A stretch of 40,528 nucleotides of DNA from a virus: IMG/VR virus record IMGVR_UViG_3300021138_000069, positions 1-40,528 of that record; one strand, written 5' to 3'. Shown in pieces: positions 14,401 through 40,528 of this stretch; position 1 is the stretch's first letter, and each line of letters begins with the position of its first letter. The notes under the pieces are model-generated. The model worked only from the letters and a program-made list of their open reading frames with translations. It did no database searches and was not told where the DNA came from. The translations under genes and the position numbers were made by a program.

Positions 14401-17400
14401 GATGCCGTTGCCGGGATCACCAATATAAATTAAGTTGCCGGCAGTGTCTAGGCTTGCACCAAAGTTGCTGACACTGTTGCCGGCATGTGCTCCAAGATTT
14501 GCCACTTGTGTAAATGTATTGCCATTTGTGACGTTGGAAACAAATGCTATAACATTGCCCAAGCCCAGTGTGGGTGTTCCGGCAAGAGCATATCTTCCCT
14601 GGGCGTCAATTGCAGTTACTGTGCCAAATCCTGCTCCACTGGTGTAATTTCCCGCTAACTTCATGTTGGCGTTGAATAAGTTTACATTGCCATGCCAGGG
14701 AGTAGACTTGTTGTAAACTACCCATCCATTGGTCAAATAATCACTGTCAATCCAGAGCTTGTCGTTATCAAGCCATCCTTGCAGTGGCTCAATTGAGTTT
14801 ATGTTTGTGTTTTGTTTGATTCGTGTACTTTGTAAACGAAACACTGGGCCGTGCCCGGTGATTGTCATTGCAGCTTTGATTTGATCGGCATTTTGTCCGT
14901 AAAACACCACGCTGATGTTGTAAGCGTCAACAATATTGTACACTTGATAAAATGCATCAACTCTGACATCAAATCCTTTTACAACAATGATATCGCCGTA
15001 CACAAACGTGTGTGGTCGATTAAATGTCACTGTGCCCACATTGTCTACGCCATAAGTCATTTTGACAACATTTATAGCAGTCTCTGTTACTCGATACACA
15101 TTCCAGTTTTGATTGGTGTCTTTGGCACACCATATGGTGTAACCCACGCCCACTGTGCCGATGTTGGCTGAAAGTTGTGCGTAGTTTCCAATATTGAATA
15201 TTGTTGTGTCTACATCATTTATGTTTACATAGCCAGCAGTGGCAATATCATTTTCGTAGATGCTGCTGGCATTGCGATTTAGATAAATGTTGGGCTGAAA
15301 TCCCACTGACGTCAAATATAAATTATTTGGTGTTACGCCAATGATGTTGTTGCTAATTGAACTGGCTCCGTTTGGCAACAGGGTAAATGTTACAGGATCA
15401 CCATTGAACACTCCCTCGGTCAGTACCAATTCAGCATAACGGTTGTTGTTTAATGCTCCATATTCGCCAACACGCATGCCCCATTCTTCATAAATGGCAA
15501 TGTTACTGGTGATACCGTTAAAGCCGGCAGCGGTAAATGCAGTAATGGCATTTAGCGAGCCTTTTTGTTTGATGAATCCTTGATAAAACTTGGCTTGAGT
15601 AGTTTCGTCAATACCAAAGTTGGTCATGTAATCACGTGGCTGGAATCCAATGGCACTGTCACTGTACAAGTGGAAGTCGCCCAAAGTTTCAGGATCGTCA
15701 ATGTCATTGAATCTCTTGAACTTTTCAGCGTTGTAACTAAAGTTGGGCAACAGGCCAGTTTGTATTTGTGTACTACTGATCTGTGTCCAACTGTTGGCAA
15801 AGAATGTGTTGGTTGCTACTAGATCTTGTGTGCTAGTGTAATAATTATTTTTATAAGTCACCAAACTACCAAGTGGATAATCTGTGCCCGGTTTCCAGCT
15901 AGACACTGTGGGACTGTTGTAGATGAATCCCGGGGGATTCATCGCTCCGGTCCAAGATCCTGTTTTCTTGCCCACCAGCTTGAGTCGGTACTGTCTATTG
16001 CCCAGTTCAGGAACATAGATGATGTCGTTAAACACATCAATGTTGTCAAATATCATCACATGCTCGTAGTCCACTAGATCCAGGTTAACCAAGCTGATGG
16101 TTTGTCCGCCATTGGCAGTAACCGAGAAAGTATTGCCATTCACTGTGTTGTTTCTAGTCACGGTCAGCTGGTTGTACTTGATGAAGTTATATCCAGTATC
16201 CAGTATACGACTTTGATTTGGAGTATTTTGTATTTGATCTACTACTCCTGTTGACGTAATCACTGTGAGTTTGTTTAGAATAGGACTTAGTACCAGTACC
16301 GCGCCTTCGCTCCAGCCCTGTTGACTCCAGGTCAAAAACTCTTGTACGCTCAACAAGAAGTCACGTTGAGTTCCAAGATCAGGATCAGTATCGGTGAACT
16401 GTATGCCAATGCCTTGTAGATAACGTTGATAGCTCACTAAGAAGTCAACCACTTGTTGTAGATTTGAGAACTCAAAGCCGTAAGGCACTGTTACTTTATA
16501 CTGCTGATAATTTTGATATATCACCGCGGTTTTGTTTAATACAGTAACAGGATACGCATTGTTATTGGCCAAACTGGGTATAATGGTAAAGTAGGGCTGA
16601 TCGAAATCAAACCCGCTTACTGAGTATCCGTTTGCAGTTACTTCAATGGTGACTGCACTGTATGTGATGTTGCTGACTGGCGTTGACTTGTACAAGTCAA
16701 TTGAATAACTCTCGTTGGGAATTATCACTCCGGGATTTGTGGTCTTTGGCGAACTTTGCTCGGCAATGACTTCAATAAATGTTTTGTCAGTGTAAGCAGC
16801 CATTTTATAGGCCAACTGCACATTGACATTATCCAGATAATTATACAAATATGTTCCAGGATCAATGCCCTGATTACGCAAATACTCCGCCACCCAATTG
16901 GTGTAACCAGCTGCTCGATATACCGCAGTGCCATTGGCAGTGCCATTGATGTATATGCTTTTAGGAGTCACACGCTGTAGTGAATCACTTAATACATATT
17001 GATTCAAATTGGGGTTTTTGTAATATCTGCCAATATCAAATAGTGTGCCAAAGTAAAATGCCGGTGCACTAAGAGCAATTGCCTGCTGCATGGCAAACGC
17101 AAAATCACTGCTTCGTCTCCAAGCAGTTTCCACTGGGCCTTGATCACCAATAGCAAAGTTGCCGTTGGCTCGATTACTGTTGAAACTCTTTACTGCAAAT
17201 TCACTTGGCGGACGTAAGGCTCCAGTATCATCTACTGGTATCAGACCCGGCCAACCATTTGCTGGGTCGGGCAACAGGCCATTTACCACACCTGTAGTGG
17301 GGTTGACAAAATATCTTATAAATCTCGAGTCGGTGTAGGCTGCGCTATCGCCGCCGTTCCATATGTAGCCGGTTTGTAAATCTTGCCATAGCACATAGTT

Positions 17401-20400
17401 ACCCCCAGTGTAAGGCGCAGCACCATAACGTGTTTCCCACCAAGCAGGCATTTCGCTAAAGCCCAGCATTTCCCAAGGACATGTGTCCGGACGATCTGTA
17501 TCGTAGAAATATTTGTAAATAGCACGCCAATACCCAAATAACGATTCTCCATTGATGCTGTCCACAAACTGATTGTAATTCCAAGTAAACGGCTCGCTGG
17601 CAACAAAATATTTGTTGGTGATATAATCAACTCGATTGCCGCCCACCCATTGCAAGAAACTGTCTGTTAGCAGTTGTGTAAACTCTGTTTTGTTGTAGTC
17701 AGTGGTTCTGAATTTTCCAGGCAAGAAATTATAAATATCAAAAACATTTTTTTGATAATCAACTTTGATGTTGTTGTAAATGCGTTTTTCAAATTCCAAC
17801 AACAGTTGATCGCGATAATCGCCCCAGGCTGGAGTAATACTGCCATCGTGTCCCTGTATCACATTAATAGGAGTTTGATAAGTATCATCTAGATAAATTC
17901 TTGGAGTAAATTTTGGATAAAGTCCTAACTTTGTAGGTGTTTCAGGAATATAATTACCATCAGTATTGTTGTATTCGTTAATGGTAATAGCATCTCCAAT
18001 ATTCAACGGATATGTAATAGTCACACCAGAACGTGTGGTATCAAACGTGTAATCCACACCCTTGACCAATTGTACACCATTGACATAGATCAACACTGCG
18101 TTATTGCTCAGTGTGGTATCGCCGAAAATATTACTGATTTCATAGTCGGTATTTTGTGTGTTTAACACAGTGTAACTTAGGGTATTTAAATAATTGTTAC
18201 CGTAAGGCACCATGTCACTATAATACCAAGCAAAGTTTTTATTTTTAACTGCATTGATATTTTGCAACAGTGTGTCTAATAATTTTGGTATGTTGGTAAA
18301 GTCCAAGCCCGCAGTTCTTGTACTTAATTCAATGATTTTGTTTTTTAATTTGGTGTATTCGTATCGTGCTAGATTCAATCCTTTCAAGAAGTTGGCGTTT
18401 ACATCTTCTAAGAATATCTCACTATACAACACTGGACTTGCATGTTGTAATATGCTTCCGCCTTGTGTCTTGACCGGAACGTCGCGCAGGTTACTAGCTC
18501 CAGGAACTGTACCTACAACTTGATTACTATTTGTTGCCATTGCAGACAAATGATTTCTTAATTGGCCTAAAGTAAGATTGTTGAAATTTGCATTTGCGCT
18601 GTTGTAATCCAAATTCTCGGGAACCCCATAATAGCCCAATTGGCTCACTTGAGATTTGTTATAAATCAATATGTCAATTTGATCGCCAGTGGTTAAACTG
18701 GTGTCGGTGACATAAACATAAGTATTGATTCCAATTTTTTGTACACTGTATCCTGTTGTCAATTGACTGTTACGGTATACTCTAAAATAGGGCACTGTGG
18801 TTCCCGGACTGGCAGTGATATCGATTTGAAAATAAGGATTATTTCCATCATATATCCCACTGATGATTTGGAACTGTTTAGATTTCTCGTTGTTAGTGGT
18901 CCAGCTATTTCTTAAATTATAACTGGTCAAGTTGACATTTTGTTGTAGTGTACCGGCGGTGTTGATGTTTTTGTCTGTAACTGCAACTTCTCCAGTAGTG
19001 GTATACCCAAACTTGTCATTGTCAAAATTATTTGTGAACTGTATGTCGCCAATTTGATTGAAGTTTCTGTAACTTAAAGGAAATCCCAACACACTGTCAA
19101 CTGCACCTGTACCAACTGTGTAAGAAAATATCTTTGTTCCCGCAAATGTTGATCCAAAGTAAACATTGGTATCGCCTAGACTGTAACCATTACTATCAAT
19201 AACATCAAATAGTGGTACTTGATTTACTGAGTTTTTGGCCTGCGCAGGATACCATTTACTGCCATCAAACCAGAATTGATAGTATGTGGCGGTATTAGCC
19301 GGATAAGGATACTTGGCTCCCGACAATACCACAACTGTGTTATTTGGACTCACCAAGTAATCTTCTGCTGGTACTAGATTAATAACCGAAGTTGGTCCCG
19401 GATAAAATGCCGCAACATACACAATGTTTACTACAAAAATTTGATTGGATATAGTGGGATCAAAATCATTTGCAAAAATAACTCGCATGCCCTGTGTCAG
19501 TGTAATTCCATCAATGGCGTAGCCTTCGGGTTGCAGTTCCACAGTATTACGAGCATCTGTAATTGAAAAATTCAATATGTCCACTGGAGCTTTTGCCACT
19601 CGACCAAAATTGTATAACTGTACATTGGGTTCAAATTCAATAATAGGCCTTGTGGCTCTTAGATTTTGATCCAATACCGGGGTAGTATTATTGTATGCGG
19701 AAGTTGCGTTGATAATATCAATGTGGAACCATCTGTTGCTACGTGTCCAAGGATTCAAATCTGCGCCGGCGCGATTTATTGTGAGATAATCTAAATTTAC
19801 CAGGCCACTGGTGGCGTAAGCCTCGGGAGTTTCAAAAGAAGTTACATCTAGCAGTTTTATTGCAGTACCTACACCTTCTACATAGTAGGTGTTACCAGCA
19901 TAACTACTGGGGTTGGCACTACTGTCAAAAGTGACGGTTAATCCATTAGAAAACACCACACCATTGGGGCTCTTGTATGTTTTTGCTCCAACTATGTCTT
20001 TGTCTATGTTTATTATTGTATCGCTCAACACCAATAAATCTATTTGTCCCACATATCCAGCGCCCACACCATCTTGATAGTATAGATTTGTCAATGGTGC
20101 TGTAATCGCGGGTACTGGGTTATAAACATTGTATTGTAAATAATCAGGATTTAAATAATAAGCAAATTCTGCACGAGTGGCACCGCCTTTGACAAACACT
20201 TTTTGCAAGGCCGAAACTGTGAATGCCTGTGCCAGTGGGTTCAGTGTAACAACAGGATCTGCATCATTACTTAATACGATTTCCCAAGCATTTAGTCTAT
20301 TGTCTACCGGCACTGTAACACCGTTCACGGTCCAGAAACTGGCGTCAAGATCGCCATTGACAAAAATTAAACTTTTTAAATTCAGTTGATAACTGCTGCT

Positions 20401-21261
20401 GACACCATCTATTCCAGACTCCTGTAGTGCTACAATACTACTCAGTGTTTTACCTTGAATTTGATTGTAGTGTAGTGTTGTGCTTAGATCTGCAGTGCCG
20501 GCCAACTTCAACTGTGTGTAAAAGTCTTGTGCATTGGACTGAGGCACCGTAAAAGTAACAGTGCCCACATCGGTACCGTTGTTGGTTACACCCAGTACGT
20601 TTCTACTGCTGATGTTGGTTTGATTGGGTTGTACGCCACTGACTCCAGGATCGGTTTGAATCCAGAACGGAAACCCAGGTTGATTGACTACAAATTGATA
20701 TGTACCACCGTAGCCCAATCTCAGTACAGGGTTTTCTACTCCGTCAGTGGTGCTGAAGTTGTAAGTGCCTGTCGCAGGATTACGTGTAACTATAAATGTT
20801 TGTTGGGCTGGAATTTCTGATCCATATACCAGCACTGCTCCTGGACCGTTTTCTAACCAATAATATTGTGTGAAGTTTACAAACTTGTCAAAGTCAAACA
20901 AACCATCATAACTGTAGTACTCGCTTTTGAATAGTCGGTCATGGTTGTTGTTGAATCCGCCACTGTAACCCACTTGATTCACCAAGTCAATATAACTGCT
21001 GAAGAAATCTACATTGTTAGTTTTGGGATTTTTAACTACTATGCTGGGCTCAAGTTGATAATTTTGTCTTTGGGCAGTGGGCTCGGGCACATAATTGTCA
21101 GTACTTTTGAATGTGGGCGCAAATTTACGACCTACATATCCATTGATGTTTCTCAAATCCGGTTGCGTTACCAATTGGTCCAAAGTTGCGTTTAAAAACT
21201 TTTGATTGGCCGGAGTTCTGAATGCTTCGGGTAAAAAATTACTGGTTACTATTTGTGCCAT
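8476..21261 (-). CDS. Giant baseplate/tail structural protein, 4261 aa, with seven-bladed FG-GAP-like propeller
   Basis: A single open frame of 12.8 kb. The first residues (FLNATLDQLV, then a VGRKFAPTF and SSYIDLVNQVGYSGG pattern) match the start of very large virion proteins in T4-like aquatic phages. Its place directly after gp25 and gp6 is that of T4 gp7 (1032 aa), so a baseplate-wedge role is inferred. Near residue 1787 and again near 3757 are short W...Y..G..V.Y...Y elements like chitin-binding CBM5/12 modules. Residues about 2190-2790 hold seven FG-GAP/integrin-like blades (FG-S-VS...G..L.VSAP....G.VYVY). Residues about 3437-3827 contain four copies of a GNxITQxxTGAxGTxY unit. The C-terminus is beta-rich. 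The ATG follows the gp6 stop by one base. The peripheral domains could bind host surface glycans; that is inference. Confidence 0.85.
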   Translation of the reverse strand: MAQIVTSNFLPEAFRTPANQKFLNATLDQLVTQPDLRNINGYVGRKFAPTFKSTDNYVPEPTAQRQNYQLEPSIVVKNPKTNNVDFFSSYIDLVNQVGYSGGFNNNHDRLFKSEYYSYDGLFDFDKFVNFTQYYWLENGPGAVLVYGSEIPAQQTFIVTRNPATGTYNFSTTDGVENPVLRLGYGGTYQFVVNQPGFPFWIQTDPGVSGVQPNQTNISSRNVLGVTNNGTDVGTVTFTVPQSNAQDFYTQLKLAGTADLSTTLHYNQIQGKTLSSIVALQESGIDGVSSSYQLNLKSLIFVNGDLDASFWTVNGVTVPVDNRLNAWEIVLSNDADPVVTLNPLAQAFTVSALQKVFVKGGATRAEFAYYLNPDYLQYNVYNPVPAITAPLTNLYYQDGVGAGYVGQIDLLVLSDTIINIDKDIVGAKTYKSPNGVVFSNGLTVTFDSSANPSSYAGNTYYVEGVGTAIKLLDVTSFETPEAYATSGLVNLDYLTINRAGADLNPWTRSNRWFHIDIINATSAYNNTTPVLDQNLRATRPIIEFEPNVQLYNFGRVAKAPVDILNFSITDARNTVELQPEGYAIDGITLTQGMRVIFANDFDPTISNQIFVVNIVYVAAFYPGPTSVINLVPAEDYLVSPNNTVVVLSGAKYPYPANTATYYQFWFDGSKWYPAQAKNSVNQVPLFDVIDSNGYSLGDTNVYFGSTFAGTKIFSYTVGTGAVDSVLGFPLSYRNFNQIGDIQFTNNFDNDKFGYTTTGEVAVTDKNINTAGTLQQNVNLTSYNLRNSWTTNNEKSKQFQIISGIYDGNNPYFQIDITASPGTTVPYFRVYRNSQLTTGYSVQKIGINTYVYVTDTSLTTGDQIDILIYNKSQVSQLGYYGVPENLDYNSANANFNNLTLGQLRNHLSAMATNSNQVVGTVPGASNLRDVPVKTQGGSILQHASPVLYSEIFLEDVNANFLKGLNLARYEYTKLKNKIIELSTRTAGLDFTNIPKLLDTLLQNINAVKNKNFAWYYSDMVPYGNNYLNTLSYTVLNTQNTDYEISNIFGDTTLSNNAVLIYVNGVQLVKGVDYTFDTTRSGVTITYPLNIGDAITINEYNNTDGNYIPETPTKLGLYPKFTPRIYLDDTYQTPINVIQGHDGSITPAWGDYRDQLLLEFEKRIYNNIKVDYQKNVFDIYNFLPGKFRTTDYNKTEFTQLLTDSFLQWVGGNRVDYITNKYFVASEPFTWNYNQFVDSINGESLFGYWRAIYKYFYDTDRPDTCPWEMLGFSEMPAWWETRYGAAPYTGGNYVLWQDLQTGYIWNGGDSAAYTDSRFIRYFVNPTTGVVNGLLPDPANGWPGLIPVDDTGALRPPSEFAVKSFNSNRANGNFAIGDQGPVETAWRRSSDFAFAMQQAIALSAPAFYFGTLFDIGRYYKNPNLNQYVLSDSLQRVTPKSIYINGTANGTAVYRAAGYTNWVAEYLRNQGIDPGTYLYNYLDNVNVQLAYKMAAYTDKTFIEVIAEQSSPKTTNPGVIIPNESYSIDLYKSTPVSNITYSAVTIEVTANGYSVSGFDFDQPYFTIIPSLANNNAYPVTVLNKTAVIYQNYQQYKVTVPYGFEFSNLQQVVDFLVSYQRYLQGIGIQFTDTDPDLGTQRDFLLSVQEFLTWSQQGWSEGAVLVLSPILNKLTVITSTGVVDQIQNTPNQSRILDTGYNFIKYNQLTVTRNNTVNGNTFSVTANGGQTISLVNLDLVDYEHVMIFDNIDVFNDIIYVPELGNRQYRLKLVGKKTGSWTGAMNPPGFIYNSPTVSSWKPGTDYPLGSLVTYKNNYYTSTQDLVATNTFFANSWTQISSTQIQTGLLPNFSYNAEKFKRFNDIDDPETLGDFHLYSDSAIGFQPRDYMTNFGIDETTQAKFYQGFIKQKGSLNAITAFTAAGFNGITSNIAIYEEWGMRVGEYGALNNNRYAELVLTEGVFNGDPVTFTLLPNGASSISNNIIGVTPNNLYLTSVGFQPNIYLNRNASSIYENDIATAGYVNINDVDTTIFNIGNYAQLSANIGTVGVGYTIWCAKDTNQNWNVYRVTETAINVVKMTYGVDNVGTVTFNRPHTFVYGDIIVVKGFDVRVDAFYQVYNIVDAYNISVVFYGQNADQIKAAMTITGHGPVFRLQSTRIKQNTNINSIEPLQGWLDNDKLWIDSDYLTNGWVVYNKSTPWHGNVNLFNANMKLAGNYTSGAGFGTVTAIDAQGRYALAGTPTLGLGNVIAFVSNVTNGNTFTQVANLGAHAGNSVSNFGASLDTAGNLIYIGDPGNGISDYGRVHIHQFNGNASFPWTQTLTSPWSSNAGDAYGTSVSASNDGGWLYVSAPNAGNVYVYHANTSNYYSYTNTITIGSSAYAQFGHQVKATSNGRQVAISAPYQSVNNITAAGAVYVYDRSVETFIANGGPAYFTTYPVVASTVKVTLNGNVITTGFTTNSSAVTFTTAPVIGSVINVDTNNIQLLEQLTAPATISGAAFGLASWIAGNDADVYVASPGYSVPGYYSGIVYRFVNQGASYGTISSTNFSPVINTGDTLRINGIIVTISGNTVANVAANINSAHIPGVTATAYPYGQLTINSNVATPYQKLTLGPSSLLSNLGLSVFANVQSFQHPGTDDVNLFGSQIVSSPDGASLMIAASEGTTYNTTTFDKNKTVFDYNSTLFNDAINGSGMVYVYGLVNGALANGTPDQYTLIQRLQNNSLHTNDEFGYSIAMNANTLLVGAPGDSNSITTDPNSGVPVTIANGGTYYVYNNFTGNVGWDLIEQQQPQVDIESISRFYLYNNTNSTLITNLDYIDPAKGKVLGAAAEDLDYITAYDPAVYNVVGGVDSVPNLANSTDFHWGPAQVTKTWWNIDQVRYLNYEQGNLTYRANNWGATFPGSQIQVCEWVASDMPPSAYNGLGTPLYPDNSAYVVESTINSVTKMVTSTYYFWVYNKNSLELASTHKNTVSTIQDIIANPQAQGIPYAAVLRSDTVSLHGISNMLGGNTTSGNTTVLHMDYDTLKNTNIIHSEYQLVQEGNSGSPIPTRIINKMIDSLSGVDMNGFAVPSANLTPQSSIGLGVNPNQTLFVNRLTALENFVEYVNGILIQHPIVEEFNISALYDVAPLPDAKIYDLAVDTHAELSYIDTTSIPVGYTVLVLKDETERGLWYTYAWTGALWSAIAYQSYYTPFYWSFVNWYDNSYNPTVLPTFVVNTVADLATISPVAGNTIKVLNNGNNQFVIYRYNADGTSSLVGIQNGTIQFDSSLYTTTVAANEIRIIFKAIQNNIFIDELEVNFNDLFFYMINYILTEQPAVDWVFKTSFISVLHQLRKLNQPANYIPDNQTYYEQYINEVKPYRTSIRQYLIDYQGNDEYYGDTTDFDIPPTFIAGAYTSPTGTATDLSPYLSTLPQYSQWYNNYTYGISEVLVAHPGNGSNVFVESLTTTANVVVNYGDSITQPYSSASGNVQINTIDNIIDLVNVSGTFITTHANLYLDTAVTVAAGNTITQLSTGATGTAYITSTGNVVTLINLSAIQFANVATGNAFVYNNGANLSANVTAITITGAYLYANGANLGVYPTATTGANQIGGYTLIPTVTVVGGGGTGANVAAVVDYTTGYISRFEVIAPGTGYTSTPTILINGTGTGAAGYPVLRNCYLIESLPTTILTTTTNNDVYTGNIITQANTGAYGTVYNNSHGNTITLIDVAGTFTTNHAIYRDYANLNSNVSSVTSYTQFVDQSYNFVRNIDTTLKFDRTVYTSNVIVWQPNITVAANSYVSYNGQAYKALQTVYSSAILSLSGNVSANIGNYVTQANTTANATVIAVSSNLSAITVANLSSNYTRRWGNIAIQSIDANVVPVAINNVFDYSKYQLLSANTFTNAADRITAYYQPTASMPGRDLSQLMTGIGYPGVEVTGVKFNANTSILTNSNVLYAFANTLSVYSSNVSVVDFTTLGYTVGQPLTIKDNSYNREYVTKIVIISSDQLVATGISHDITLGSNITLSYYDFTNPTYLDSSITNSYKNTTFGSNIGDTTLDGGAYYDTYSSHAPEELVPGATFDNLNMMVTTKLQSGTSIVSYLIEYNMQANASSQNTKVWPKYYGVNYNHITTLTANLNITDSNIYVANAQALTPPNLNNLTPGVVYINGEKITFWTVDYNNNVLGQIRRAVDGTGAPAVSVAGNQVLEVNTPELIPGGNLVHTNTWLNAPPGISKFIVDEYNTQIVANVGGVLESLATIGNISGAVTDGSGLEGAIFSSNPTVEAAFLRTLIKPLI

Positions 21262-32345: not shown

Positions 32346-32384
32346 GTTGACTCGTGCACAATAAATATGTTAGTATATGCTAAC
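32346..32384 (+). promoter_or_regulatory. gp55 upstream region: promoter-like elements and a palindrome
   Basis: Three elements overlap here. A TTGACT at 32346 and TAGTAT at 32371 form a weak sigma70-like pair with a 19-base spacer. An AATAAATA at 32360-32367 matches the late octamer on the plus strand. A 16-base near-palindrome, GTTAGTAT/ATGCTAAC with one mismatched pair, spans 32369-32384. They lie just before the gp55 ribosome site. Early transcription followed by late self-activation is plausible; which element works is not decided by sequence. Confidence 0.4.
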
Positions 32385-32400
32385 TAATAAGGAAGCAAAG

Positions 32401-33282
32401 GTGAAACATAATTACCTCAACAACAAAGACATACTAAAAGAGATACACAAAAGCAAGACAACATATTGCAGTTATACTCGACCCGAATACGCTGATTACG
32501 ACATGATACTGCCCGAAATCGGAAAAATAAACAAAAAGAACATCTTGGAAGCTAGAAAATTACGTGCCGAACGACTAGCTAAACTAGCACACGAGGCTGC
32601 TACAACCGATGGTGTTAAACGCAAATTGGACGAGTTTGAGATCAAACTCAAGGACATTGCAACTACAGATGTGGTGTTTAGAGTAATGACCTGGGATCAT
32701 ATTCCGGTCGACGATGCCAAAACCAAAAAAGCACGTATGACTGCCTTGGAAATTGAGGACGATGAAGATCCTTTGTTAACCGAATACGATGAAATGGATT
32801 TGACACACACCAAATATGTCAAAGTAAATTTTCCACCCTTTCAGCATTTCAAAGTGGACGAAGCCGGCAAGCCTGTGCTAGTGGGCAAGAGTCACTGGCA
32901 GGGCGATTTAGAAACTGGCGAGTTTGGCAAAATGCACGGTAATATGACCAAGAAACTGGCCCATATGTTTATGAAACTGTGTGAACGCTATGCAACACGT
33001 AGCAATTGGCGCGGATATACTTACAACGATGAGATGCGTAGCCAAGCACTGCTACAACTGACTTATATAGGATTACGCTTTGATGAATCAAAATCGGCCA
33101 ATCCGTTCGCTTATTACACAGCCGCAGTTACTAACTCATTTACTCGAGTGCTGAACATTGAAAAACGCAATCAAAACATACGCGACGACATATTAGAGAT
33201 GTCGGGTCTTAATCCCTCTTACACTCGTCAGGGCATGAGTAGTGGATATAGTGGTGGAGGGGGGCACGAATCAGACGAATAG
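32401..33282 (+). CDS. 55: Late-transcription sigma factor gp55-like, 293 aa
   Basis: gp55 binds host RNA polymerase core and directs it to TATAAATA-type promoters, which occur before many genes in this window. The C-terminal core (KKLAHMFMKLCERYATRSNW, YTYNDEMRSQALLQLTYIGL, then SANPFAYYTAAVTNSFTRVL) is the conserved gp55 region-2-like part. The N-terminus HNYLNNKDILKEI also fits. Between them is about 100 residues (FRVMTWDHIPVDD to FGKMHGN) with an acidic patch, absent from T4 gp55 (185 aa). The C-terminus ends SSGYSGGGG with no evident hydrophobic clamp-binding motif. I choose the GTG at 32401 because AAGGA lies 7 bases upstream; an in-frame ATG at 32377 has no ribosome site and falls inside a palindrome. 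Confidence 0.9.
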   Translation: MKHNYLNNKDILKEIHKSKTTYCSYTRPEYADYDMILPEIGKINKKNILEARKLRAERLAKLAHEAATTDGVKRKLDEFEIKLKDIATTDVVFRVMTWDHIPVDDAKTKKARMTALEIEDDEDPLLTEYDEMDLTHTKYVKVNFPPFQHFKVDEAGKPVLVGKSHWQGDLETGEFGKMHGNMTKKLAHMFMKLCERYATRSNWRGYTYNDEMRSQALLQLTYIGLRFDESKSANPFAYYTAAVTNSFTRVLNIEKRNQNIRDDILEMSGLNPSYTRQGMSSGYSGGGGHESDE

Positions 33283-33352: not shown

Positions 33353-34024
33353 ATGTATTTACACTACTATGTCTATGCTTATTTGAGAAAAAACGGAACC
33401 CCGTACTATATCGGCAAAGGTAAAGGTAACCGAGCATATGACGATCATGTCACACATCGTCCACCAAAACATAAATCACGAATTGTTTTCTTAGAAACTG
33501 GGTTATCCGAACTTGGATCGCTAGCAATTGAACGAAGATATATTCGTTGGTATGGACGAAAGGATATTGGTACTGGTATATTGCATAATAAAACCGATGG
33601 CGGAGATGGCTTAACTGCTGCGTCTATTGAGACTCGAAAAAAGATATCTATTAGTAGGACTGGAAAATGTGTTGGCGAAGGAAATCCTTTTTATAATAAA
33701 AAGCATTCTAAAGAAACATTAGAAATAATGAGTTTAAAAAAGAAAGGGAAACGCACTGGTCCTTTTTCTGAAGAGAGATGTAAAAATATCTCTAATAGTT
33801 TAAAAGGAAAGCCAAAATCAGCAGAATGGTCAGCGGTTGCAAAAAAGAATAGAACTAACCGGCCTTGGTCCGAGGCTCGTAAAAATGCAGGCAGAAAAGT
33901 AATGACTCCATATGGGGTTTTTAATTCTATGTCCGAAGCCGAACGAGAACTAGGCCTTGGGCATAATGTTATATCTTATAGAGTCAAGACTCAACCAGAC
34001 ACTTATTATATTATTAAGAAATAA
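33353..34024 (+). CDS. Free-standing GIY-YIG homing endonuclease, 223 aa
   Basis: Residues 4-90 are the GIY-YIG nuclease: YYVYAY, then [13 protein letters not shown], catalytic arginine in the following helix, the metal-binding glutamate in [12 protein letters not shown] and the asparagine in LHNKTDGG. Next are NUMOD3-like DNA-binding repeats ([31 protein letters not shown]). The C-terminus ([20 protein letters not shown]) is a NUMOD1/helix-turn-helix-like module. Such genes are mobile and cut intronless or uninserted alleles, often in flanking conserved genes; here it stands between gp55 and gp47. Base composition is AT-rich. TAGGAG precedes the ATG, and an exact late promoter lies in the leader. 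No intron is evident. Confidence 0.92.
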
Positions 34025-34076: not shown

Positions 34077-35096
34077 ATGACTAATTTATTTAAAAAGGCA
34101 GCAGTCTTTACCGATCTCCATATCGGGCTCAAGAGCAACAGTATTTTACACAACGAAGATTGTTGGAATTTTATCAAGTGGATGACCGCTAAAGCTCTCG
34201 AGGAGGGGTGCGAAACTGCCATCATGACCGGCGATTGGCATAACAATCGTGCTAGTATTAATATAATAAGTCTTAACTATTCATTGCAATGCTTAGAACA
34301 CCTTAGTAAGAATTTTAAGCAGGTATTTGTGATTCCAGGCAATCACGATTTGTATTATCGGGATAAAAGAGATGTTAATTCTGTTGCGTGGGCAAAACAT
34401 CTAGAAAATGTTGTGATTATTGATGGATTTATGTCAACCGGGGATGTAGTATTTGCTCCGTGGCTTATTGGTGACGATTACAAAAAAATTCCAAAATTAA
34501 AAGGCCGATACATGTTTGGGCACTTTGAACTGCCGGGATATTTAATGAATGCTATGATTGCATTACCAGAAAGCCATGGAGATATTAAACGCGAACACTT
34601 CAGCAACTTTGATCATGTGTTTACCGGACACTTTCACAAACGTCAAACACAACGAAATATAACCTATATCGGGAATTGCTTTCCGCACAACTACGCCGAT
34701 GCTGGCGACGACGATCGCGGCCTTACCATACTAGAATGGGGCAAGGAACCCGAGTATCATGCATGGCCCAACCAACCACGTTATCGTGTATTTAATTTGA
34801 GTGATGTACTAACACATACAGAATCTATGTTGCGACCCGGAATGCATGTTCGAGTAAATTTAGATGTGGATATCAGTTACGAAGAAGCAACTTTTATCAA
34901 AGAAACATTTATCAATACTTACCATTTAAGAGAAATTACCCTGATTCCCGCTAAGGTAACCGAGTTGACTGAATACCAAATACAAGGTAATATTGAATTT
35001 GAAAGTGTAGATCAAATTGTCTATAGTCAACTTACTACTATAGACAGCAAGCAATACGATCCCAACTTGCTACTCGATTTGTATAGAAATTTATGA
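34077..35096 (+). CDS. 47: Recombination nuclease subunit gp47 (Mre11/SbcD-like), 339 aa
   Basis: This is a calcineurin-like metallophosphoesterase with all the expected metal-binding motifs: FTDLHIG (D13, H15), TGDWHNN (D53), PGNHD (N89-D91), H149 in FGHFELPG and TGHFHKR (H185, H187). It has the same length as T4 gp47 (339). With gp46 it forms the Mre11-Rad50-type complex that resects double-strand ends for recombination-dependent replication and host DNA degradation. No Shine-Dalgarno is seen before the ATG, and the predicted transcription start coincides with it. The stop overlaps the next gene's ATG (ATGA). Confidence 0.95.
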   Translation: MTNLFKKAAVFTDLHIGLKSNSILHNEDCWNFIKWMTAKALEEGCETAIMTGDWHNNRASINIISLNYSLQCLEHLSKNFKQVFVIPGNHDLYYRDKRDVNSVAWAKHLENVVIIDGFMSTGDVVFAPWLIGDDYKKIPKLKGRYMFGHFELPGYLMNAMIALPESHGDIKREHFSNFDHVFTGHFHKRQTQRNITYIGNCFPHNYADAGDDDRGLTILEWGKEPEYHAWPNQPRYRVFNLSDVLTHTESMLRPGMHVRVNLDVDISYEEATFIKETFINTYHLREITLIPAKVTELTEYQIQGNIEFESVDQIVYSQLTTIDSKQYDPNLLLDLYRNL

Positions 35097-35803
35097 GAAT
35101 TTATGTCAATGGATGTTCATACACCTATGGTGACGAGTTGCAATCAACAAATTCTGCATGGCCACAATTATTAGCTAACAAATTGAATACAGAAATTGTA
35201 AACGATGCTATAAGTGGGGGCACAAATTATAGAACAGTTTATCGCACTATTAAACATACCAAAGATAATTTTGATTTGTATATTATTGCGTGGACAACTG
35301 ATACAAGATTTACTTTTTACAAATCAGATAATAATTTTGAAATAAATTTCAACCCACAACTGAAAAATAGCATATATGATAAAGAACCATTCTATCAAGA
35401 ATGGGGTAAGACTTTATACAAGGTATGGTATAACGAATTATACGCTTTTAAATTGTGGCTTCAACAAATTATTCAATTACAATCAATTATTAAAAAACCG
35501 TATCTAATGATTAATACTATGCACAATAACATGTCTAGTTGGTTAAGTACTAAAGATACTTTTATAGAATCTACCAAAGCACTAATAAATTTTAATATCA
35601 TGGATGATGAACAAATACTTGCAGAATATCAAGAAATACAGTATTATAGTAGTCTAATAAACAAAAATAATTTTTATGGTTGGAACAATTTTTATATCAA
35701 ACAATTGTGTGAAAAATTTCCTTGTGGCCCCGGCGGTCATATCTTAGAAGCCGGCCACAATTATGTTGCAGATTTAATTTATAACCATTTATGTTCAAAA
35801 TAA
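35093..35803 (+). CDS. SGNH-hydrolase-like protein, 236 aa
   Basis: The N-terminus MRIYVNGCSYTYGDELQS matches the block I of phage SGNH/GDSL proteins in which GDS is replaced by GCS; S9 would be the nucleophile. A SGGTNYRT block near 41 fits block II, and GPGGHILEAGH near the end gives candidate catalytic H216 or H222. SGNH enzymes cleave or transfer acyl esters on glycans, lipids or other molecules. The substrate here is unknown. The gene starts inside the gp47 stop (ATGA) and overlaps gp46 by 13 bases, so it is embedded between two partners of one complex. It is rich in Asn, Lys and Ile codons with A or T at the third base, unlike gp46, which suggests later acquisition. Confidence 0.7.
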   Translation: MRIYVNGCSYTYGDELQSTNSAWPQLLANKLNTEIVNDAISGGTNYRTVYRTIKHTKDNFDLYIIAWTTDTRFTFYKSDNNFEINFNPQLKNSIYDKEPFYQEWGKTLYKVWYNELYAFKLWLQQIIQLQSIIKKPYLMINTMHNNMSSWLSTKDTFIESTKALINFNIMDDEQILAEYQEIQYYSSLINKNNFYGWNNFYIKQLCEKFPCGPGGHILEAGHNYVADLIYNHLCSK

Positions 35804-37560
35804 AAGATTTAACAGTACGCAATTTTATGAGCGTAGGCAATACCACCCAAGCGGTTAGCTTTGACCGTAATGATTTAACACTGGTACTGGGCGAGAACTT
35901 GGACTTGGGCGGCGACGATTCAGGTGCACGTAACGGCACTGGTAAGACTACTATTATTAATGCATTGAGCTATGCGCTCTACGGCAATGCACTTACCAAT
36001 ATCAAGAAAGACAATTTGATCAATAAAACCAATACCAAAGGTATGATGGTTACCATTGATTTTGAAAAGGATGGGCAAAACTATCGTATCGAACGAGGAC
36101 GTAAGCCCAACGTAATGAAGTTTTGGGTCAACGACACCGAACGAGAAATCACAGATGAAGCGCAGGGCGATAGCCGAGAAACACAAACCGAGATAGAGCG
36201 CATGCTGGGCATGAGTCATGATATGTTCAAACACATTGTGGCGCTGAATACTTACACTGAACCATTCTTATCTCTAAAAGCCAACGATCAAAGAACCATC
36301 ATCGAGCAGTTGTTGGGTATCACACTATTAAGTGAAAAAGCAGAATTGCTCAAGGAACAAATCAAAGCCACAAAAGATGCTATCACTCAAGAGGAGTATA
36401 GGATCAAAGCTGTCACAGATGCCAATGCACGTATACAAGAACAAATAGAAAATTTAAAGCGTAGGCAAACACTTTGGCTTAGAAAACGGGAAGAAGATTT
36501 AGACAAGTTGTTGGCATCATTTGACGAGCTTAATGCTTTAGATATTGAAGCAGAGCTAGTGGCGCATCAAAAGTTAAATGAGTACACAAAAAAGAAAAGT
36601 GAAATAGAACGTATCCGAGGCTACATTACACAAAACGAACGTGATCAAGCTCGAGAAGACAAAGTGTTGGCTCGTCTAAGAGCTGAATTGGAGGCATTAC
36701 AAAATCATCAGTGCCATGCCTGCGGTCAAGACCTACACGACGACAATCATGAACAAATGCTTGAGGACAAGCAGAAGCAAATTGGCGACACAGCACTCAA
36801 TGCACTTGCAGCACATACACAGTGGTTAGAAAATACTGAAGCGTTAAAAGCATTAGGCGAGTTAGGCGATAAACCACAAGTATATTATACCAGTGAAGCA
36901 GATGCTTTCGAACATCGTAGTAGCATGGGCAGTATTCTAGCACAGTTAACTGCCAAACAAGAGGAAACTGATCCTTATGCTGAACAGATTCGAGACATGA
37001 GCGAACAAGCTCTGGAAGAAATTGATTATGGCGTTATGAATGAATTTGACCGTGTCCGACAACATCAAGAGTTTTTACATAAGCTACTAACCAACAAAGA
37101 CAGTTTTATACGTAAACGTATTATTGATCAAAATTTAAGCTACCTAAATGCACGTTTGGGACAATACTTGGATCGTATAGGCTTGCCTCATACTGTTAAA
37201 TTTAACAATGATTTGACTGTGGCCATTAGTGAGCTGGGACGAGAACTGGATTTTGATAATTTGTCAAGGGGCGAGCGTAATCGACTGATTCTATCACTGA
37301 GTTGGAGTTTCCGTGATGTGTGGGAAAGCCTATACCAGCCCATTAACTTGTTGTTCATTGACGAGCTTATTGATTCGGGCATGGACTCTAGCGGAGTTGA
37401 GAACAGTTTGGGCATACTTAAAAAGATGAGTCGTGATGCTAACAAATCAATTTGGCTAGTATCACACAAAGATGAACTAGCCGGACGTGTTCATAATACT
37501 TTACACGTGGTTAAAGAGAATGGCTTTACTAGTTATAATACGGATATAGAAATTGTTTGA
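35791..37560 (+). CDS. 46: Recombination ATPase subunit gp46 (Rad50/SbcC-like), 589 aa
   Basis: The Walker A motif is GARNGTGKTT at 45-54. The ABC signature LSRGERNRL begins at 491, and Walker B with catalytic glutamate lies in LLFIDELIDSG near 520-530. Two coiled-coil arms flank a zinc hook CHAC at 308-311. Length is close to T4 gp46 (560). It partners gp47 to process DNA ends. The ATG overlaps the SGNH gene by 13 bases and has no ribosome site of its own, so it depends on coupled translation. Its 3' end overlaps the radical SAM gene that follows. Confidence 0.96.
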   Translation: MFKIKDLTVRNFMSVGNTTQAVSFDRNDLTLVLGENLDLGGDDSGARNGTGKTTIINALSYALYGNALTNIKKDNLINKTNTKGMMVTIDFEKDGQNYRIERGRKPNVMKFWVNDTEREITDEAQGDSRETQTEIERMLGMSHDMFKHIVALNTYTEPFLSLKANDQRTIIEQLLGITLLSEKAELLKEQIKATKDAITQEEYRIKAVTDANARIQEQIENLKRRQTLWLRKREEDLDKLLASFDELNALDIEAELVAHQKLNEYTKKKSEIERIRGYITQNERDQAREDKVLARLRAELEALQNHQCHACGQDLHDDNHEQMLEDKQKQIGDTALNALAAHTQWLENTEALKALGELGDKPQVYYTSEADAFEHRSSMGSILAQLTAKQEETDPYAEQIRDMSEQALEEIDYGVMNEFDRVRQHQEFLHKLLTNKDSFIRKRIIDQNLSYLNARLGQYLDRIGLPHTVKFNNDLTVAISELGRELDFDNLSRGERNRLILSLSWSFRDVWESLYQPINLLFIDELIDSGMDSSGVENSLGILKKMSRDANKSIWLVSHKDELAGRVHNTLHVVKENGFTSYNTDIEIV

Positions 37561-38458
37561 TTTAAAGAATATAAAAGTTTTACATATAGAACCCACAACA
37601 GTATGTAATGCTGACTGCCCACAATGTGCCAGGGGAGATCCTGAGGTATATATTGATCATCTAAACCGGTCTGAATTAACCTTAGATGTTTGCCAAGAAT
37701 TGTTTAAGCCAGCATTTATAAAAAATTTAGATAAAATGTTTATGTGCGGTAACTTTGGGGATCCGGCTGCCGGGGCTCATACCATTGAGATCTATAAATA
37801 TTTTAGAGAACATAACCCAAATATTGTTTTAGGTATGAACAGCAATGGTAGCATAAGGGCTACTAGTTGGTGGCAAGAGCTTGGTGGTGTTTTTTCAAAT
37901 CCCTACGATTATGTTGTTTTTAGTATTGATGGATTGGAAGATACAAATTCAATATATAGAAGAAATACAGTATGGTCCAAAATAATAGAGAACGCCCAGG
38001 CCTTTATTAGTGCAGGCGGTACCGCTCATTGGGACATGCTGATTTATGAGCATAACCAACATCAGATAGCACAAGCAGAAAGTTTGGCTGCTGATCTAGG
38101 GTTTAGTTGGTTTAGAACTAAAGTAAGTAAGCGATTTAAATCATATAATATAAGTTTTTTAAATCCCCCAAAGGGATACACACTACCAAATGTAGTTAAT
38201 TCCAAACAAATTAGTTGCCATGCATTAAACGAAAAAAGCATTTATGTATCAGCCAATGGTAAAATATTACCGTGTTGCTGGTTTGGTGCAGAAATCTTTA
38301 CTTTAGACAACCAAGCACAAAATTTATTACAAGATTGGAATTTATTGGCATCTAGTTGGAGCAATTCGCCGCATAGAATTTGTCAAGACACTTGCTCTAT
38401 AGACGATGGTGGCACCAGCTTTAGCAATCAGTGGCAGTATACAAGGCAATTAAAATGA
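37553..38458 (+). CDS. Radical SAM protein with SPASM-like C-terminus, 301 aa
   Basis: The CX3CX2C cluster that binds the SAM-cleaving 4Fe-4S is C18, C22 and C25 (VCNADCPQCARG). GNFGDPAAG at 67 and VLGMNSNGS at 92 are the following GGE-like and strand motifs, and FSIDGLEDTNSIYR at 123 is typical of the radical SAM barrel. C222, C241, C242, C277 and C281 (LPCCWFG; ICQDTC) form a SPASM-like set for an auxiliary cluster, as in enzymes that modify peptides or sugars. The start is a TTG inside gp46 with GGA about 8 bases upstream; the next ATG is too far in. It overlaps its neighbours at both ends. The substrate is unknown. Confidence 0.85.
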   Translation: MFDLKNIKVLHIEPTTVCNADCPQCARGDPEVYIDHLNRSELTLDVCQELFKPAFIKNLDKMFMCGNFGDPAAGAHTIEIYKYFREHNPNIVLGMNSNGSIRATSWWQELGGVFSNPYDYVVFSIDGLEDTNSIYRRNTVWSKIIENAQAFISAGGTAHWDMLIYEHNQHQIAQAESLAADLGFSWFRTKVSKRFKSYNISFLNPPKGYTLPNVVNSKQISCHALNEKSIYVSANGKILPCCWFGAEIFTLDNQAQNLLQDWNLLASSWSNSPHRICQDTCSIDDGGTSFSNQWQYTRQLK

Positions 38459-39954
38459 ATAAAGATATAGTTATTTTAAGCGTGCCGAGAATAGCACCTG
38501 TCCGACCCAGTGCCGGTGTAGCTATGATTAAAACTCTCTGCAATTCTGTTAACAAATCTAATATTATAATAGATATTAACAAAATCTTTTTTACAGAATT
38601 CACAAATCAATTTACACAAGAAGCAAAAGCAATTGATGAATACTTTGTACAATATAACAAAGAATTGTCTGTAGATGTTAAAACAATTTATAATAATTGG
38701 ATTAAGCAATGTATTCAAGATGTATTAGCATACTCTCCTAGATTAATTGCTATCAGTGTTTTTAGTTGGCAATCTCAAAAATTTGTCACTGACTTTTTAT
38801 TACAACTTAGAAAAAAATTTACTGGAGAAATAATTATTGGCGGACAAGGTTTGGTCAATAGTCAAAACATGAGCAGCCATTGGACTAAAAACACAGATTA
38901 CGCAGAGGATCTCTTAAACAAAAAAATGATTGACTATTATATGAAGGGGGAAGTTGAAAAAACTTTTCCTAGATTTTTAAAAGGCGAAAGAAAATTACCA
39001 GGGCTAAACAACAATCAACATTCAATACTAGAAAATATCGATGACGCCCCATATATGGATTTTAGTGATTTTAGTGTAGACAATTATCAAAACGGATACG
39101 ACACTGGCGTACTTCCTATAGAAAGCAGTAGAGGATGTGTTAGAAGTTGTAGTTTTTGTGAAATGAGTTCGGAGCACGGTAAGCATCGTAGCAAAGACGG
39201 GGATAAACTAGCAAAAGAAATTATCTATTATTATGAGTCAACAGGTTGTAGAAATTTTTATTTTCATGATGATTTAATAAATGGTAATCTAAAAGATTTT
39301 AAAAAATTTATCAATCAGATATTAGACTATTATAAAGAAAATAATCTGAACGATAGGCACTTTACACTAAGTGGGTATTGGATTGTAAGATCAGAAAAAC
39401 AATTTAATGAGCAAGATTTTGAAAAATTCTATCGTGCTGGCGGTAATACTCTTGTTACTGGAGTAGAAACCGGTAGTGATCGTTTGCGTAAAGTGATGAA
39501 AAAAGGATTTACTAATAAAGATTTAGAGTTCACTCTCAAGTGCATTAATCAATTTAAAATGAAATTTTATTTTATGCTGATTGCAGGCTTGCCTGGAGAG
39601 ACTGAGGAAGATTTTAACGAGACTATAGCGTTGCTATCAAAATTACAAAAGTATGTAGCCACTGGCAATATTATTGGTATTAATTTAGGTACGACTGCTA
39701 CTATAGAACCTGGTACAGATATTTTTAAAAATTATAAAAAATATAATTTAGTAGGGTTGGCAGAAGAGCAACCTAAAGGAATATACTGGATGTGTACCAC
39801 AACTCCAGAATTAGATTATAGAGAACGAGTTAGAAGAAGAGTAAAATTACAAGAATACGTGATGAGTCTGGGTTATCCGTTATGGAAGGGCGATGATCAT
39901 TTGCGTATAATCATTGACAAATACAAAGAAAATGTTGAAGTTTGGAATGCATAA
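38455..39954 (+). CDS. Radical SAM protein with B12-binding-like N-terminal domain, 499 aa
   Basis: The C228X3C232X2C235 motif lies in SSRGCVRSCSFCEMSS. YFHDDLINGN and TGVETGSDRLRKVMKKGF are typical of the B12-type radical SAM class (methylthiotransferase/BchE-like fold). Residues 1-190 resemble a Rossmann-type cobalamin domain (RPSAGVAMIKTL; LIAISVFSWQSQ; EIIIGGQGL) but I see no DxHxxG cobalamin motif, so B12 binding is doubtful. I choose the ATG at 38455, which overlaps the previous stop (ATGA) and has AAGG upstream, over an in-frame GTG at 38431. The ORF is AT-rich and ends in TAATG with the next gene. Reaction and substrate are not known. Confidence 0.85.
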   Translation: MNKDIVILSVPRIAPVRPSAGVAMIKTLCNSVNKSNIIIDINKIFFTEFTNQFTQEAKAIDEYFVQYNKELSVDVKTIYNNWIKQCIQDVLAYSPRLIAISVFSWQSQKFVTDFLLQLRKKFTGEIIIGGQGLVNSQNMSSHWTKNTDYAEDLLNKKMIDYYMKGEVEKTFPRFLKGERKLPGLNNNQHSILENIDDAPYMDFSDFSVDNYQNGYDTGVLPIESSRGCVRSCSFCEMSSEHGKHRSKDGDKLAKEIIYYYESTGCRNFYFHDDLINGNLKDFKKFINQILDYYKENNLNDRHFTLSGYWIVRSEKQFNEQDFEKFYRAGGNTLVTGVETGSDRLRKVMKKGFTNKDLEFTLKCINQFKMKFYFMLIAGLPGETEEDFNETIALLSKLQKYVATGNIIGINLGTTATIEPGTDIFKNYKKYNLVGLAEEQPKGIYWMCTTTPELDYRERVRRRVKLQEYVMSLGYPLWKGDDHLRIIIDKYKENVEVWNA

Positions 39955-40478
39955 TGAAAATTAAGGTACTCTTAGATTTTGATGACACTTTTGGTAAACC
40001 CCAAATTGATATACTAGTAGATGAATATACATATTATTCAGGTGACGTTCAAAGAGAAATAGAACTTAATATAGACTGCAATCAGGGTGATCATCAGTTT
40101 AAAATCATACATCGTAACAAAGCAGTAACTGATTTCAATCAAGAGCATGACAAACATGTAGTAATTGAAAAAATATTCTTTGACGAAATAGATTTAGATC
40201 AATTAGAAAATTGTCGATTAACTCATGCCGGAAAATTTTATCCAGAATACAACAAAGATTATATAGAGACATGGAAAAAGCAGGGCGTTGTTTTACCTGA
40301 ATTTATATCTCCTAATCACTATCTTGGACATAATGGTATATGGGTATTGGATTTCGAATATCCGGCATTAAATTGGATTATTAAGATTCAAAATCCTGCC
40401 GGTATTAATTTAGAAGATACTATGTTTTCTACCGGAGATATTGTATTATTAGAAATAAAAGAAATTTTTAATTTATAA
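39954..40478 (+). CDS. Hypothetical protein in the radical SAM cassette, 174 aa
   Basis: I do not recognise a family. The N-terminal half (IKVLLDFDDTFGKPQIDILV, ELNIDCNQGDHQFKIIH) is strand-rich, like a beta-sandwich carbohydrate-binding or coat-type domain. The C-terminal half has aromatic motifs (GKFYPEY, NHYLGHNGIWVLDFEYP). It has no signal peptide or membrane segment and only one cysteine-free metal-like feature (several His and Asp). The ATG shares a base with the preceding TAA (TAATG), with GGA 7 bases upstream; an in-frame TTG at 39942 is less likely. Gene coupling suggests it serves the radical SAM enzymes, perhaps as a partner or substrate, which is inference. Confidence 0.75.
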   Translation: MKIKVLLDFDDTFGKPQIDILVDEYTYYSGDVQREIELNIDCNQGDHQFKIIHRNKAVTDFNQEHDKHVVIEKIFFDEIDLDQLENCRLTHAGKFYPEYNKDYIETWKKQGVVLPEFISPNHYLGHNGIWVLDFEYPALNWIIKIQNPAGINLEDTMFSTGDIVLLEIKEIFNL

Positions 40479-40528
40479 TGTTTGATTATAATATCATTGA
40501 CGAATACCAACTTGAAATTACAAGCTAT
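40478..40528 (+). CDS. Start of a further gene, possible third radical SAM protein (partial)
   Basis: An ATG at 40478 overlaps the preceding TAA (TAATG) and the frame stays open for 17 codons to the window edge, reading MFDYNIIDEYQLEITSY. LEITSY is the strand that commonly precedes the first cysteine of radical SAM clusters (LEITxxCNxxCPxC), so a radical SAM enzyme is a fair prediction, but the cluster itself lies outside the window. Confidence 0.45.
   Translation, partial: MFDYNIIDEYQLEITSY

Follow-up and report, generated by a model that had tools for sequence, protein, structure and literature searches.

Organization of the gp47–gp46 region

The window analyzed here, an entire 40,528-base IMG/VR virus record, is probably a fragment of a far larger T4-like genome, judging from related contigs as long as 320 and 354 kb. 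Its plus strand carries, in order, genes for a gp55-like sigma factor, a homing endonuclease, gp47, an SGNH-like protein, gp46, two radical SAM enzymes (rSAM1 and rSAM2), and a 174-aa protein, followed by the start of a third radical SAM gene, rSAM3 (Table 1). The adjacent SbcD- and SbcC-like genes beside the gp55-like sigma factor identify a T4-like gp46/gp47 operon, in which we distinguish two positions occupied by additional genes: site A, between gp47 and gp46, and site B, between gp46 and a GIY-YIG gene found in relatives. The record stops at 40528, only 17 codons inside rSAM3 (MFDYNIIDEYQLEITS...). An SDR gene comes after rSAM3 in complete relatives, and the same is predicted for the phage from which the window derives. 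Elsewhere on the window, minus-strand positions 8476–21261 form one open frame of 4261 aa, probably encoding a giant structural protein, and relatives of the homing endonuclease between gp55 and gp47 recur in loci L019 and L216.

Table 1. Features of the plus-strand block of the window.
Feature	Position	Strand	Evidence
gp55-like late sigma factor, opens the plus-strand block	32377..33282	+	phrog_12791, E 1.2e-78; position kept in relatives
Homing endonuclease (NUMOD3 motif), passenger	33353..34024	+	PF07460 above cut-off; phrog_314
gp47 / SbcD-like nuclease subunit, bounds site A on the left	34077..35096	+	phrog_100, E 1.1e-58; Metallophos
SGNH-like protein (DUF6071), site A cargo	35093..35803	+	PF19547, 30.3 bits vs cut-off 27
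gp46 / SbcC-like ATPase subunit, separates sites A and B	35791..37560	+	phrog_77, E 2e-100
rSAM1, C-terminal SPASM/twitch-like cysteines, TTG start	37553..38458	+	PF04055, 31.0 bits vs 29.5
rSAM2, N-terminal Rossmann (cobalamin-type) domain	38455..39954	+	PF04055, 58.2 bits; Foldseek
CBM60-like beta-sandwich protein, rSAM2 partner	39954..40478	+	AF2 model; Foldseek top match 2xfd
rSAM3, first 17 codons, truncated by contig end	40478..40528	+	MFDYNIIDEYQLEIT matches rSAM3 start in L004–L007

Junctions and base composition

Neighboring genes overlap at each of the six junctions from gp47 onward: by 4 bases between gp47 (stop codon at 35094–35096) and the SGNH-like gene (ATG at 35093), 13 bases between the latter (end 35803) and gp46 (ATG at 35791), 8 bases between gp46 (end 37560) and rSAM1 (TTG at 37553), and 4 bases between rSAM1 (end 38458) and rSAM2 (ATG at 38455), with the sequence TAATG joining both rSAM2 to the CBM60-like gene (end and ATG at 39954) and the CBM60-like gene to rSAM3 (at 40478). 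Direct reading of the sequence thus reproduces exactly the junctions, start codons, and positions of the original prediction. Within the window's structural block on the minus strand, a single junction of 14 overlaps (6/6 vs 1/14, with junctions taken from the window gene list; Fisher by hand, about 2e-4). Overlap does not, however, distinguish an inserted cassette: among 139 distinct relatives, gp47|gp46 junctions without any cargo already overlap or abut in 40/47 cases, and cargo junctions do so in 304/412. The overlapping junctions are therefore a property of the host operon, and cargo enters an operon that is already coupled. At the gp46|GIY-YIG junction of relatives with an empty site B, overlap occurs in 0/17.

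The cargo is AT-richer than gp46, as had been proposed from hand counts of 15 and 31 G/C, both of which are exact. Whole-gene GC agrees, with values of 0.288 (SGNH-like), 0.363 (rSAM1), 0.317 (rSAM2), and 0.293 (CBM60-like) for the cargo, and 0.385 and 0.407 for gp47 and gp46, respectively; GC3 is 0.20–0.29 for the cargo compared to 0.37–0.38 for gp46 and gp47.

Two independently filled docking sites

Relatives of the locus were collected by searching with gp46 and not with the cargo, to avoid bias, giving a set of 66 loci spanning each site. In this set, site A was empty in 28 loci and held an SGNH gene in 8, and site B was empty in 20 loci, with an rSAM1-like gene directly following gp46 in 29 (20 of them strong). 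Distinct loci were also counted after pooling all searches, including loci found with the cargo itself, and removing near-identical loci. By this count, site B holds rSAM1 with a second SPASM radical SAM gene in 25 loci, rSAM1 alone in 22, rSAM2–CBM60–rSAM3–SDR in 8, rSAM1–rSAM2–CBM60–rSAM3–SDR in 6, and no cargo in 16; the SGNH-like gene occupies site A in about 11 of 107. Both sites hold cargo, are often empty, and are filled independently across the 139 distinct relatives. A candidate link between the SGNH gene of site A and the rSAM2 module of site B was rejected for the gp47–gp46 locus (Fisher p = 1.0), and there is likewise no association between SGNH in site A and any radical SAM gene in site B (Fisher p = 0.68).

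The DNA-recombination operon is thus a docking site for swappable radical SAM gene sets in one little-known group of large T4-like environmental phages, which upholds the earlier view of these genes as linked cargo inside the gp47–gp46 operon. The single cassette that had been envisaged does not hold: with the SGNH gene of site A varying independently of the radical SAM genes in site B, the cassette resolves into a neighborhood of three units (SGNH, rSAM1, and rSAM2–CBM60–rSAM3–SDR), of which one is a true module. The second unit, rSAM1, adjoins gp46 either alone or with a second SPASM radical SAM gene; most loci that carry it lack rSAM2, and about half of those with rSAM2–CBM60–rSAM3–SDR lack rSAM1. 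The occurrence of each gene singly in unrelated places, which had been named as evidence against a common pathway, is seen in part, as radical SAM genes, SGNH genes, and the rSAM2–CBM60 pair are also found elsewhere in related genomes, for example beside a uvsX-like gene, but rSAM2–CBM60–rSAM3–SDR keeps its order across divergent phages.

Sites A and B also host AMP-binding, PDDEXK, and unknown genes. In locus L095 (1067–4978), two AMP-binding (adenylating) enzymes are the site-A cargo between gp47 and gp46. In site B of L089, L150, and L154, a CBM60-like gene lies between two PLP-aminotransferase-like paralogues that replace the radical SAM genes, the likeness being a weak Pfam match in one.

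The rSAM2–CBM60-like–rSAM3–SDR module

The module genes run in the order rSAM2, CBM60-like, rSAM3, and SDR, then the GIY-YIG gene; a few loci lack the SDR. Among distinct loci, rSAM2 and rSAM3 flank the CBM60-like gene in 16/23, the SDR follows rSAM3 in 22/26, and rSAM3 precedes the SDR in 22/23. A divergent lineage, with a CBM60-like protein of just 35–37% identity, has the same order. Some loci hold rearranged versions, in which the CBM60-like and SDR-like genes are divergent, and rSAM3–SDR is also found without rSAM2. At L226:1–2990 (minus strand), as in the 354-kb contig, an rSAM2-like and CBM60-like pair adjoins a uvsX-like gene, giving cargo a second place to dock among early genes.

The catalytic cysteines, on which the original prediction depended, are intact, with the motif present in 99/99 rSAM1, 23/23 rSAM2, and 24/24 rSAM3 sequences. 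In rSAM1, which exceeds the Pfam Radical_SAM threshold, the CxxxCxxC core comprises C18, C22, and C25, and C222, C241, C242, C277, and C281 are conserved at or near 100% among 100 aligned sequences. Its score against Pfam SPASM (14.5) is below the cut-off of 21.5; the auxiliary-cluster cysteines are nonetheless present. Against the N-terminal-twitch radical SAM family NF033640, rSAM1 reaches 32.1 bits, short of the cut-off of 170, which a separate cargo family (I12) exceeds with 289.

Relatives of rSAM2 were retrieved by an alignment search (14 loci) after a single-sequence search gave none. The structural model of rSAM2 is moderately reliable (pLDDT 69, with low values at residues 133–245) and places a Rossmann domain N-terminal to the radical SAM core, with Foldseek matches to TsrM, MgmA, and OxsB (probability 1.00) and a remote similarity to AprD4. 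The DxHxxG motif, which is not universal among cobalamin-binding radical SAM enzymes, was not seen in the aligned N-terminal domain. The best named family for rSAM2 is the RiPP C-methyltransferase family rSAM_ocin_1 (E 3e-26), yet neither its score of 92 (cut-off 281.85) nor that for PhpK (80.5 vs 600) reaches the NCBIfam threshold. The remaining enzymes of the module are rSAM3, a 370-aa SPASM radical SAM protein, and the SDR, which retains TGxxxGLG, S93, Y109, and K113.

The CBM60-like partner and the SGNH-like protein

The 174-aa protein was modeled as a beta-sandwich (AF2 pLDDT 75.8), with a weak top PDB match by Foldseek to vCBM60 (2xfd; E 0.013, TMq 0.47, TMt 0.72); the best matches also include a related calcium-dependent carbohydrate-binding module (CBM60/CBM36-type). 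The window protein has no match to Pfam PF16841, and two divergent relatives match it weakly (E 0.014 and 0.0068), the best scoring 17.3 against a cut-off of 28.2. The modeled resemblance to CBM60 is therefore weak, a hint and not family membership. Few residues are conserved in the wider family (P16, K56, and G128), and tblastn with this protein gave no match in the phage collection. Among 14 related contigs, CBM60-like genes adjoin a radical SAM gene in 7/11 cases, a gene weakly similar to glycosyltransferases (Anp1) in 3/11, and a PLP-enzyme-like pair in 1.

The SGNH-like gene exceeds the threshold for DUF6071 and misses that for Lipase_GDSL_2. S9 and two histidines are invariant among five relatives, and because these lack the usual conserved DxxH aspartate, catalytic activity of the protein appears uncertain from its sequence. 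In the 14 related contigs, SGNH relatives lie within 5 kb of a radical SAM gene in 19/25 cases compared to 7.9 expected, a few SGNH genes having entered the count of 25 as two pieces. A link between SGNH and radical SAM chemistry is thus supported at genome scale, though the two are independent at the gp47–gp46 locus.

Radical SAM load and known parallels

The 14 related contigs (2.09 Mb) contain 125 radical SAM matches, or 6.0 per 100 kb, with 17 in each of the two largest contigs. Another radical SAM gene lies within 3 kb of 89 of the 125, compared to 36 expected, and the same genomes carry carbamoyltransferase, hexapeptide acyltransferase, SGNH, and amidinotransferase-like genes with radical SAM genes, some of the PLP and amidinotransferase assignments of cargo being weak matches combined with reading by eye. 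Conserved arrays, each with five or six N-twitch radical SAM genes in tandem, occur at L211:4353–12091, L212:2950–9510, L213:5021–11915 (minus strand), and L215:2534–10330 (minus strand), and also hold carbamoyltransferase, hexapeptide acyltransferase, desaturase, and SGNH genes.

That T4-like phages can carry many radical SAM genes was known (PMC2853527, PMC5332604, PMC7029224). The T4-like environmental genome TARA_ERS488813_N000010, with 12 radical SAM genes interpreted through Fe-S metabolism (PMC5332604), resembles the related contigs in its very high load. Pelagimyophages carry radical SAM cassettes in a host-recognition setting (PMC7029224); in Pelagibacter phage Mosig EXVC030M, rSAM3-like (E 1e-19) and SGNH (E 1.6e-10) genes share one tightly packed run with an ArnB-type aminotransferase, a radical SAM, and a carbamoyltransferase gene. 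Whereas this run resembles the window in combining rSAM3-like and SGNH genes, it lies beside tail-fiber genes, and the Mosig genes tested included no SDR, rSAM2, or CBM60-like match. The Mosig SGNH was found by a profile search, tblastn with the window SGNH-like protein having given no match in the phage collection. The T4-like Campylobacter phages CP220 and CPt10 carry 11–12 radical SAM genes in clusters with an amidinotransferase, which were described as interchangeable and left without explanation (PMC2853527). CP220 encodes nucleotide-sugar transferases in addition to its radical SAM genes, three of which match rSAM3, and its amidinotransferase matches site-A cargo family c22 (E 2.6e-10). 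Unlike the cargo described here, the CP220 cluster lies near baseplate genes and not at gp46–gp47 in the stretch read, and no CBM60-like partner or rSAM2-type enzyme was found in it. Finally, T4 itself places additional small genes, their ends overlapping, between genes 47 and 46 (47–46.2–46.1–46), as here, but neither a radical SAM nor an SGNH gene.

Three features appear to be new, namely the fixed module, its CBM60-like partner, and the site at which cargo docks, and no description of a gp47–gp46 cargo locus was found in the literature that could be searched. Descriptions of radical SAM genes in phages go back to 2010; a fixed-order four-gene module with a docking site and a carbohydrate-binding-like partner replaces the vague observation of many such genes with a small, testable set.

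A possible role in sugar editing

Of the substrates considered in the original prediction (a peptide, glycan, or nucleotide), a glycan fits best. The observations behind this reading are the gene order, the conservation of the module, the intact motifs, the similarity in fold, and the association with sugar-type genes, from which the sugar substrate, the reaction, its destination, and its timing are inferred. We tentatively suggest, with slightly less than even confidence, that the module edits a carbohydrate by radical dehydrogenation or dehydration and SDR reduction, and that docked cargo is made along with the recombination proteins. Co-production is probable because stop and start codons overlap (ATGA, TAATG). 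Site A would contribute an SGNH-type protein, and site B rSAM1 together with rSAM2, the CBM60-like protein, rSAM3, and the SDR, the last two being cut off by or lying beyond the contig end. The CBM60-like protein may hold or present a saccharide, from which rSAM2 and rSAM3 would abstract hydrogen at unactivated C–H bonds, leaving the SDR to reduce the carbonyl so formed. The net change could be deoxygenation, as with AprD4 and AprD3, or epimerization, by BtrN-type dehydrogenation and subsequent reduction; alternatively, rSAM2 may add a methyl group if it binds cobalamin, and SGNH proteins may add or remove acyl groups. In the apramycin pathway, the radical SAM diol dehydratase AprD4 deoxygenates a sugar together with a separate NADPH reductase, AprD3 (PMC5461906). 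The fold of rSAM2 resembles that of AprD4, and an SDR in the same module is comparable to the separate reductase, but the similarity is remote and the SDR follows rSAM3, not rSAM2.

The edited sugar would probably end on the host envelope (for receptor masking or superinfection exclusion) or the virion, a guess guided by the host-recognition context in which the cassettes of Mosig and the pelagimyophages are found (PMC7029224). Early timing is suggested only by the gp46/gp47 neighborhood: the late-promoter sequence TATAAATA occurs 3 times in the window compared to 3.2 expected, and the number of sigma-70-like sites in the window is near chance. If sugar editing is correct, these phages would use radical chemistry to remake glycans, which would affect receptor masking and superinfection in natural waters. 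Several points weigh against a sugar substrate, as the module itself contains no glycosyltransferase, the modeled CBM60 similarity is weak and the beta-sandwich a common fold, and gene association is not function.

A broader version, which we consider improbable, would credit a large, uncultured clade of T4-like phages with a toolkit in which radical enzymes for rare sugars form plug-in modules around a CBM60-like saccharide-binding partner, docked in an early recombination operon. Its parts would be comparable to those of aminoglycoside pathways (radical SAM dehydratase or dehydrogenase, SDR, aminotransferase, amidinotransferase, and carbamoyltransferase). BtrN-type dehydrogenases and streptomycin-type amidinotransferases, together with tobramycin-type carbamoyltransferases and AprD4/AprD3, provide analogies of chemistry and not of descent.

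Alternative explanations

The main rival to sugar tailoring is modification of a protein or peptide, in which the radical SAM enzymes would place cross-links, methyl groups, or epimerizations on a polypeptide, possibly the CBM60-like protein or a tail protein, with the SDR as the finishing enzyme. Most SPASM/twitch radical SAM enzymes characterized so far are peptide maturases, and the match of rSAM2 to rSAM_ocin_1 points the same way, albeit below cut-off. The constancy of the CBM60-like protein amid a varying class of neighboring enzyme (radical SAM, PLP-like pair, or glycosyltransferase-like) is also what a substrate would show. We nevertheless regard this explanation as rather doubtful, given that neither a leader-recognition domain nor a short precursor peptide is visible in the module, the partner forms a folded domain with few conserved residues, and the adjoining gene families in the same genomes are of sugar type. 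It is also unlikely that the genes are unrelated passengers of a permissive site, which would have arrived separately for different purposes such as counter-defense or metabolism and share no pathway. The independent variation of sites A and B, the other gene families that both accommodate, the frequent occurrence of rSAM1 and SGNH alone, and the unrelated small genes 46.1 and 46.2 that T4 keeps between 47 and 46 would all be expected of passengers. Conservation of the four-gene order across divergent phages, recurrence of the rSAM2–CBM60 pair elsewhere, and genome-wide clustering of SGNH and radical SAM genes beyond chance would not.

A pathway for making a hypermodified nucleotide or base of DNA would suit a DNA-metabolism operon, and radical SAM enzymes such as QueE do serve phage DNA modification. 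However, no radical SAM enzyme of the module matches QueE, and the counterparts in cultivated phages are located close to tail or baseplate genes. We judge this explanation very improbable because its partner genes (QueC/D, DpdA, hydroxymethylase, and base kinase) were absent from the cargo families searched.

Relatives on plasmids and in cellular genomes

A search of genome contigs for cellular rSAM2 relatives returned one fragment of 28% identity. On a Solidesulfovibrio plasmid, an rSAM2 relative lies amid epimerase, acyltransferase, glycosyltransferase, and sialate O-acetylesterase genes in a polysaccharide-type cluster. An rSAM3 relative (206 bits) on a Nocardia plasmid is located by a second radical SAM gene and genes for a phosphoketolase and a HAD hydrolase; this region of Nocardia farcinica pNF1 (L230:3675–14048) combines relatives of rSAM3 and cargo family D20 with the latter two genes and with mandelate-racemase-type and methyltransferase genes.
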